A stretch of DNA of 64,000 nucleotides from Dehalococcoidia bacterium (GTDB taxonomy: Bacteria > Chloroflexota > Dehalococcoidia > DSTF01 > JALHUB01). The position numbers and the translations under genes were made by a program. Below, in pieces: positions 35,124 to 37,039 of the stretch. The notes beneath the pieces were generated by a model that had not been told where the DNA came from, made no database searches, and saw only the letters and a list, made by a program, of their open reading frames with translations. The DNA is taken from assembly GCA_030018455.1 (NCBI GenBank), contig JASEFU010000009.1, positions 1 to 64,000 on the forward strand. The letters are read 5' to 3'. How positions within the stretch are numbered: the first letter of the stretch is position 1; each line of letters opens with the position of its first letter.

Positions 35124-36299
35124 ATGCCCATGCAGTTTGACGACACCGACTTCGAACCGTCGACCGAGAGCGAGCCGCTCAAGGAGGCCATCCGCCTGCG
35201 GATCGAGGCGGAGGGCAGGATAACGTTCGAGCAGTTCATGGCGATGGCCCTCTATCACCCCCTGTACGGCTACTACAACTCGCCCGGGGAGAAGATGGGC
35301 CGCCAGGGCGATTACCTGACAAGCCCCGAAGTCCACCCCATCTTCGGTCAGTTGGTCGCCCGGCAACTCCGCGAGATGTGGGAGCTGATGGGCCGGCCCG
35401 CCGTGTTCGACGTGCTGGAGCAGGGAGCGGGCAACGGCCTTCTCTGCCGCGATGTCCTCCGCTGGGCGCAAAGACAGGCGCCGGACTTCCTCGAGGCGCT
35501 GCGCTACCGGCTGCGGGATACAAGCGAGGAGCTGGTGGGGCGGCAACGGCGCGCGATCGAGCCGCAGGGCGCGGCTGCGGCCGCGCACGCCTACTGGGAA
35601 GACGCGTCGGCGCCGCTGGAAGCCGTCGAGGGCTGCGCGCTCAGCAACGAGCTTGTCGACAGCTTTCCCGTGCATCGCGTGCTGATGGAAAACGGCGAGC
35701 TGCGCGAGATATATGTCACGTGGAAGGACGGCCGCTTCCAGGAGGAGATCGGCGACCCTTCCTCGCCGGCGCTCGCGGCCCACTTCGAGGCGCTGGGGGT
35801 CTGGCCGGGCGAGGGCTGCCGCGCCGAGGTCAACCTGGCGGCGGTCGATTGGACGAGGCAGGTCGCGCAGGCGCTCCAGCGCGGCTTCGTCATGACCTTC
35901 GATTACGGCTACGAGGCGGCCGACCTCTACGCGCCCTGGCGCCGCGACGGGACCCTCCTCTGCTTCTACCGCCACAGCGCCGGCGGCGACCCCTACGCGC
36001 GCATCGGGCGGCAGGACATGACCTCGCACGTCGATTTCACCACCCTGGTCCGGACCGGCGAAGCGCACGGCCTCAACCTCCTCGGCATAACGACGCAGGA
36101 GAGGTTCCTCACCGCGCTGGGGATAGGCGGCGCCCTTGCTCCGCCGCAAGGCACGGAGACCCGCCTCGAGGAGTACTACGCGCGTCGTCGGGCAGTCACC
36201 GAGCTCACCGATCCGGCGGGCCTGGGCCGCATAAAGGTGATGCTGCAGGAGAAAGGCGTCGGCGCCGTCCACCTGCGGGGCCTCCAGCTCTCGGCGTAG
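35124..36299 (+). CDS. MidA/NDUFAF7-family SAM-dependent methyltransferase
   Basis: The 391-residue protein matches the MidA family (COG1565): FEQFMAMALYHPLYGYY, GDYLTSPEVHPIFGQLVARQ, VLEQGAGNGLLCRDVL as SAM motif I (near residue 98), and LSNELVDSFPVHRV. The mitochondrial homologue NDUFAF7 dimethylates an Arg of the complex I 49-kDa subunit. The bacterial substrate is unknown. The ATG at 35124 follows GGAAG. The 3' end converges on the 30-residue membrane protein gene. Confidence 0.88.
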   Translation: MPMQFDDTDFEPSTESEPLKEAIRLRIEAEGRITFEQFMAMALYHPLYGYYNSPGEKMGRQGDYLTSPEVHPIFGQLVARQLREMWELMGRPAVFDVLEQGAGNGLLCRDVLRWAQRQAPDFLEALRYRLRDTSEELVGRQRRAIEPQGAAAAAHAYWEDASAPLEAVEGCALSNELVDSFPVHRVLMENGELREIYVTWKDGRFQEEIGDPSSPALAAHFEALGVWPGEGCRAEVNLAAVDWTRQVAQALQRGFVMTFDYGYEAADLYAPWRRDGTLLCFYRHSAGGDPYARIGRQDMTSHVDFTTLVRTGEAHGLNLLGITTQERFLTALGIGGALAPPQGTETRLEEYYARRRAVTELTDPAGLGRIKVMLQEKGVGAVHLRGLQLSA

Positions 36300-36314: not shown

Positions 36315-36407
36315 TCACGCGCCATCCGCCAGCTCCCTCGACCACCACTGCCACACGAGATACAGCGCCGCCGCAACCACCCACACCGCGACAATCAGGC
36401 TACCCAT
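36315..36407 (-). CDS. Small membrane protein, 30 residues
   Basis: A 30-codon gene reading MGSLIVAVWVV at its start, with a hydrophobic helix spanning about residues 4-19 and a C-terminal tail holding three Trp, Ser-Arg-Glu and an Asp. A single-pass membrane peptide is predicted. Support is unusually good for its size: GGAGGGA lies four to five bases before the ATG, and TTGACA-N17-TATACT is placed about 33 bases further upstream. It is convergent with midA. I recognise no family. Similar single-helix proteins often bind larger membrane complexes or transporters. Confidence 0.6.
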   Translation of the reverse strand: MGSLIVAVWVVAAALYLVWQWWSRELADGA

Positions 36408-36417
36408 GGTTCCCTCC

Positions 36418-36467
36418 GCAGTACATCTGTTCGTCTTCTGGCGGCAAGTATAGAACACATGTACTGC
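36418..36467. promoter_or_regulatory. Long-spaced inverted repeat over the small-gene promoter
   Basis: GCAGTACAT (36418-36426) and ATGTACTGC (36459-36467) are perfect inverted copies 32 bases apart. One half lies between the -35 and -10 of the minus-strand promoter and the other in the leader of the small gene. This fits a repressor binding two half-sites, or a long hairpin in a plus-strand transcript. Confidence 0.5.
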
Positions 36468-36475
36468 CCTGTCAA
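36447..36475 (-). promoter_or_regulatory. Consensus sigma-70 promoter of the small membrane protein
   Basis: On the minus strand TTGACA (36470-36475) is followed by exactly 17 bases and TATACT (36447-36452). This is the closest match to the housekeeping consensus I found in the window. Predicted transcription starts near 36440, about 33 bases before the ATG. Confidence 0.7.
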
Positions 36476-36589: not shown

Positions 36590-37039
36590 TTGACACAGGC
36601 AAGCGAGACTGAAACCAAGGAGAAACAACAGAAACCCATCGTCAATTACTTGAAACTTCCCGACTCCCCGGACGAGAAGCCTTACCTGTGGGGCAGCCGC
36701 TGCAAGGCCTGCGGGGCCGCATATCTGGGGCCGCGGCTGGCCTGCGCCAGGTGCTTCGCGGTCGGCGACTTCGACGAGATCAGGTTCGGAGACGAGGGCA
36801 CCCTCAAGACCTTCACGATCGTCCACCAGTCCGCGCCCGGGATCGAGGTCCCTTTCATCGCTGCCATCGTCGACCTGCCGGAGGGCACGGCCGTACGCTG
36901 CAACCTCGGCGGCATTGAGCCCGACCCCGAGAAGCTGGTGCCGCTCCTGGGCAAGAAGGTGGAAATGTACACCGAAAAGGTCCGCGAGGACCGCGAGGGC
37001 AACGACGTAATCGCTTTCAAGTACCGGCCCGCGAACTAA
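36590..37039 (+). CDS. Zn-ribbon OB-fold (DUF35) thiolase partner
   Basis: The 149-residue protein has a rubredoxin-like zinc ribbon (CKACGAAYLGPRLACARC, near residues 38-55) followed by an OB fold (GTLKTFTIVHQSAPGIEVPF). DUF35 proteins bind thiolases and shuttle acyl-CoA, as in archaeal acetoacetyl-CoA thiolase/HMG-CoA synthase complexes and BbsA of toluene degradation. The TTG start at 36590 is set by an ideal AAAGGAGGT six bases upstream. The thiolase gene follows after 39 bases. Confidence 0.88.
   Translation: MTQASETETKEKQQKPIVNYLKLPDSPDEKPYLWGSRCKACGAAYLGPRLACARCFAVGDFDEIRFGDEGTLKTFTIVHQSAPGIEVPFIAAIVDLPEGTAVRCNLGGIEPDPEKLVPLLGKKVEMYTEKVREDREGNDVIAFKYRPAN

Follow-up and report, generated by a model that had tools for sequence, protein, structure and literature searches.

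Within a 64-kb stretch of a Dehalococcoidia genome (64,000 nucleotides, referred to here as the window), a minus-strand frame of 30 codons with promoter-like elements in front of it is flanked by a midA-like gene (PF02636), convergent and stopping at 36299, and by a plus-strand DUF35-type gene that starts at 36590. Is this frame a real gene, what controls its expression, and what could so short a product do in the cell?

Promoter, reading frame and paired operators

The frame occupies positions 36315..36407 of the minus strand, with its ATG at 36407 and its TGA ending at 36315, and encodes MGSLIVAVWVVAAALYLVWQWWSRELADGA, a predicted transmembrane helix followed by an aromatic and charged tail. 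An alternative upstream GTG start would extend the product to 47 residues; homologues align from the ATG only. The initial annotation had described an ordered set of signals in front of this frame, TTGACA-N17-TATACT, a leader of about 33 nucleotides and GGAGGGA, and each of them was located where it had been placed. The −35 hexamer TTGACA (36470..36475, minus strand) matches the consensus exactly and is found at all homologues within the order that carry LexA-type boxes (see below). A promoter scan identified the −10 hexamer TATACT at 36447..36452 on the same strand, 39 nt from the ATG, which leaves the leader of ~33 nt if transcription starts near 36440. The ribosome-binding site GGAGGGA (36411..36417, minus strand) is a purine-rich site that is retained 5′ of the homologous frames. 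The description of this promoter as the best in the window is borne out by a whole-window scan, in which it is the top sigma-70-like site with 11 of 12 matches versus 10 of 12 for the runners-up; the exact string TTGACA-N17-TATACT occurs once.

An inverted repeat across promoter and leader had been noticed as well. The repeat is present, but its length was understated at nine bases: the arms, at 36418-36432 and 36453-36467 (span 36418..36467, no strand assigned), are 15 nt long, complementary at 14 of 15 positions and separated by 20 nt. Each arm contains a near-palindromic 12-mer resembling GAAC-N4-GTTC, the LexA operator motif of Gram-positive bacteria (PMC3323433). Operator 1, GTACATGTGTTC (36453..36464, minus strand), lies in the spacer between the −35 and −10 hexamers and abuts the latter. 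Operator 2, GAACAGATGTAC (36421..36432, minus strand), covers approximately +9 to +20 of the transcript. Because the upstream arm precedes the expected transcription start, the repeat is a pair of DNA operators and not an RNA hairpin.

The strength of these sites was evaluated with a matrix trained on the lexA and recA promoter boxes of the order only, with zero small-gene sites included. Over all positions of the window, the two boxes take ranks 1 and 2, with 14.5 bits for operator 1 and 13.8 bits for operator 2. Two hundred Markov replicas of the window gave on average 0.5 sites this good, and none of the 200 had a pair within 60 bp. The exact pattern GWAC-N4-GTTC is not enriched over the whole genome relative to a control pattern, so that the pattern alone proves nothing; the argument is carried by the matrix, by the pairing of the boxes and by their conservation. 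High-scoring boxes within long genes (GreA-like, penicillin-binding protein and pseudouridine synthase genes, named by eye) were judged to be chance matches. A LexA of Dehalococcoides reportedly also uses the GAAC-N4-GTTC motif. Taken on its sequence features, the small gene is very probably repressed by LexA.

Homologues and translation of the small frame

Homologues were sought by a profile search of 393 genomes of the class with manual follow-up, and in 400 genomes of the phylum. Of the order's 18 genomes, 15 (G000-G012, G016 and G017) have a boxed homologue; the assemblies of the other three (G013, G014 and G015) have a completeness of 72-84%. A longer-tailed version with two boxes is encoded in each of four genomes from a second Dehalococcoidia family, f23 (G036, G169, G199 and G233). 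In these f23 proteins (L137-L140), a variable linker is followed by a conserved second segment, LPTAAALGVDADVAVR. No convincing homologue was found in the rest of the class (393 genomes) or in the phylum (400 genomes), including the sampled Dehalococcoides-like and other Chloroflexota genomes. Weak matches there (G071, G159, G051, G229, G719, G565 and others) are without an operator pair and were set aside as unproven or due to chance. At the DNA level, matches among relatives were limited to the closest family, and a contig search with a two-row profile yielded, apart from an unrelated Chitinophagales match, the contig of G001 (Dehalococcoidia MAG PFL39) only.

The initial annotation had proposed to look in related genomes for synonymous-biased change and for stop codons. 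Stops are absent from the boxed frames of the 15 genomes, and pN is smaller than pS in 15 of 15 codon comparisons (pN/pS 0.15-0.72), which are not 15 independent tests since the pairs share branches. The ratio is 0.46 between the window and G001 and 0.15 between G002 and G004, with zero second-position changes in the latter pair. Start codons and purine-rich ribosome sites are also retained across the homologues. Judged by this conservation, the 30-codon frame is a real, translated gene. The suggestion of a regulated small protein is supported by the same frame conservation and low pN, and the regulator that had been missed is indicated by the LexA box pair. Likewise, the view that the ordered combination is unlikely for a random frame gains from the conserved frame, from pN<pS and from operators ranking as the top two of 64 kb.

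The operators are conserved together with the frame. In all 17 boxed homologues that were scored together, the 120 nt nearest the start codon contain two or three boxes, a box count that other scanned segments of the same loci almost never match; two further boxed loci were found after this scoring. Within the order, the distance from the first base of the −35 hexamer to the start of box 1 is 11-13 nt. The nearest relative, G001 of the same family, encodes MLSAVVVGISVMLGGFYLIWQWWSRELAEGE, with boxes GTACGGGTGTTC and GAACATATGTGC at a TTGACA promoter, and its locus keeps the neighbourhood of a ModE-type regulator, a DUF6391 protein and a metallo-hydrolase. Gene neighbours vary by family, with DUF35 in the window, a hydrolase in G001, and fumarase-like and MRILAVDMGTGTQDILLFD genes in family f4. 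Since the neighbours differ between families, the operators travel with the small gene and not with a neighbour.

Some relatives of the small gene are unboxed. G004 has two copies (L071 and L075), one boxed and one without a LexA box, so that one of the copies seems either to have lost SOS control or never to have been under it. In family f3, unboxed relatives of the form MQFF...AYLLHQFW (L012, L110, L016, L162 and L164) are located 3′ of a Lys/Ala-rich, histone-H1-like gene, and their C termini, LKAA or LMAA, resemble ClpXP-type C-terminal tags. These unboxed paralogues in G004 and f3 imply that the helix family is not confined to SOS.

LexA-type sites elsewhere in the order

The same type of site is found at genes of the SOS response. 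With true lexA genes defined by a PF01726 match with E below 1e-15, 15 such genes of the order have a box near the promoter, mostly directly after the −10 hexamer (for example GAACAGGCGTTT and GAACACGCGTTC); the box at the lexA gene of the window's own genome is GAACATGTATTC. The recA promoters of family f3 have box pairs, and those of G003 and G009 contain GAACAGATGTAC, identical to operator 2 of the window. The recA promoter of the window's own genome (L053), in contrast to the boxed recA promoters of f3 (L055, L056, L063 and L064), is without a LexA-type box, indicating that recA is not under uniform SOS control across the order. The lexA gene was located in most genomes of the order; in the 90% complete assembly of G008, which has a boxed small gene, neither lexA nor recA was found.

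Further sites were observed in the window's own genome. A LexA-type box, GAACACACGTTC, overlaps the TTGAC promoter of a TIGR03916-like radical-SAM gene for DNA modification or repair (L076 2074-3306, G000:C8), whose match of 334 bits is slightly under the curated cut-off of 343.5. A weaker box, GAACTAACGTTC, lies upstream of a Y-family polymerase gene (IMS domain). The sequence TTGACGGCGCAGCACATGTGTTCTATCCT, nearly identical to the promoter-operator of the window, is found 5′ of a gene for a 176-residue coiled-coil protein (MQDTEPERPEIEERLTEAQ...; L091 1490-2063, G000:C5:169810-170400), which on the strength of this site is probably a second SOS gene, with no function assigned. Paired boxes, GAACGCCTGTTC and GAACAGATGCTC, and a TTGACA hexamer also precede, in the paired arrangement of the window promoter, a gene for a 36-residue zinc-ribbon protein, VSRRRISSHRCPDCGGPLVHGEGCIRCPICGFTHCS (L083 ~1870-2060, G000:C12:5170-5360), for which no confident Pfam family was found.

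These data bear on two readings that would take the small gene, or its product, out of the SOS response. It could be argued that the boxes serve a repressor other than LexA whose site is GAAC-N4-GTTC-like, as the link to LexA is drawn from sequence and the recA gene of the same genome is unboxed. However, the motif stands directly after the −10 hexamer of nearly all true lexA genes of the order and recurs in the f3 recA promoters, and it is the one established for Gram-positive LexA (PMC3323433), which makes a different repressor improbable. Still less probable, to the point of being barely credible, is that there is no protein gene at all, the frame being there by chance and the signals serving an antisense or regulatory RNA or the divergent DUF35 gene. 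The boxes do lie 126-170 nt upstream of the start of DUF35 (36590, opposite strand), but no plus-strand promoter was seen there, and where the divergent gene is a different one, as in G001 and other genomes, the boxes stay with the small frame. The antisense RNA, which the initial annotation had offered as the alternative, fails because the frame, start codon and ribosome site are all conserved, with pN<pS, and because the transcript from approximately +1 is less structured than its shuffles (z +2.0), which argues against a structured RNA.

The membrane protein and its possible role

All members of the family have a stretch of ~17 uncharged hydrophobic residues with a hydrophobic moment of 0.03-0.16, i.e. 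non-amphipathic. The helix is followed by a collar, [WYH]-[QE]-[WYFLI], and then by a short tail, which has a negative charge in the members from the order; in the window protein this tail has 12 residues. The earlier description of one hydrophobic helix with a Trp-rich charged tail agrees with the single predicted helix and the WQWWSREL tail found here. A small-residue patch (AAA, GG, CAA or SSA) is retained near the collar and may be like those of helices that pack against other helices. The AlphaFold model consists of one helix, residues 2-29, with a pLDDT of 95, and is uninformative on the target. The small protein is strongly predicted to insert in the membrane as a single-pass protein. 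Searches of Pfam, NCBIfam and PADLOC gave no family match, and PHROGs gave none for the window protein; the two weak PHROGs matches, at E>0.005, belong to other members.

The sequence evidence thus strongly supports a gene that is repressed by LexA and induced in the SOS response, and whose product is a single-pass membrane microprotein. Given the paired LexA-type operators, the small protein is probably made upon DNA damage, as we infer from established SOS biology. LexA bound to both operators, in the promoter spacer and just after the transcription start, would shut the strong sigma-70 promoter. Upon DNA damage, RecA-stimulated self-cleavage of LexA would release the promoter and allow the 30-residue membrane protein to be made. 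The helix, with its small-residue patch and aromatic/Gln collar, would then probably pack against a membrane component of the divisome, with the SEDS polymerase FtsW, or one of its partners, as the likeliest target; septation would be delayed until repair is done, as with SidA, YneA and SosA. The genome encodes FtsZ and two SEDS (FtsW/RodA) proteins, the SEDS genes lying at C2:238821 and C2:265172; nothing in the sequence of the small gene or its neighbourhood points specifically to division. We regard the chances as even that this whole chain holds, with a stand-alone SOS gene whose product holds back division via FtsW or a partner.

The proposed division arrest and FtsW target are suggested by analogy with known proteins. 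Small membrane proteins that are induced by SOS and inhibit division are in use in many bacteria and are mutually unrelated in sequence (PMC6051672). SidA of Caulobacter crescentus is a 29-residue inner-membrane protein that is induced by LexA cleavage and acts on FtsW (PMC4211646). The window protein is compared with SidA by size and by its single helix, with no sequence relation claimed. The LexA motif, however, differs between the two lineages, and the interaction with FtsW belongs to SidA and may be extended to the window protein by analogy. YneA of Bacillus subtilis, SosA of Staphylococcus and ChiZ of Mycobacterium are single-TM proteins that are induced by SOS and act on the synthesis of the septal wall, and they share with the window gene an operator of the GAAC-N4-GTTC type found in Gram-positives (PMC3323433). 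The TM segment of YneA binds TM7 of FtsW, and FtsW has been proposed as a common target (PMC13396833). Unlike the genes of this group, the small gene is not adjacent to lexA, and the extracellular LysM domain of YneA has no C-terminal counterpart in the window protein, which ends in the short tail only.

Two other roles for an SOS-induced membrane protein were weighed against the division checkpoint. A depolariser of the TisB/DinQ type, which would lower the proton motive force and lead to dormancy, fits the size class, as TisB (29 aa) and DinQ (27 aa) of Escherichia coli are likewise single-TM proteins of 27-29 residues under LexA control (PMC8309996, PMC3567139). The charged helix and antisense RNA control of TisB and DinQ are, however, both unseen at the small gene. 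TisB has a charged strip of D5, K12, D22 and K26, versus an uncharged helix of low moment (0.03-0.16) in all members here. No opposite-strand sigma-70 promoter for an antisense antitoxin was seen in the 34-39 kb region, a scan outside of which a trans-acting RNA would fall, and the transcript has less structure than its shuffles (z +2.0). A TisB-like pore is therefore less likely than a division checkpoint, and we consider it unlikely in its own right. The product could instead regulate a membrane protein other than the divisome, such as a protease, a transporter, a cell-wall enzyme or a DNA-uptake or nucleoid-membrane factor. Small single-TM proteins often act as adaptors, and the unboxed paralogues place the same helix in other contexts. 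Against this, most of the single-TM proteins known from the SOS response either inhibit division or depolarise the membrane (PMC6051672; PMC13396833), and no neighbour suggests a different partner, the neighbours changing between families. Such a role is a lesser but real possibility, and the division checkpoint stays our working model.

There is almost no sequence in common among small SOS membrane proteins, which have been discovered one at a time; a literature search found none described for Chloroflexota. The small gene adds a family that is new in sequence, conserved and with a fixed operator layout, to a functional kind already known, and a LexA operator model with a small regulon has been obtained for the order. 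If its product acts as proposed, it would be a new independent case for FtsW as the common target of these proteins, and it offers a testable connection from DNA damage to division, in a phylum that is poorly represented in culture. We tentatively suggest, at somewhat less than even odds, that this previously undescribed LexA-controlled microprotein family, which lacks an extracellular domain and uses a bare TM helix and a W/Y/H-Q-W/F collar, may constitute the DNA-damage division checkpoint of Dehalococcoidia.
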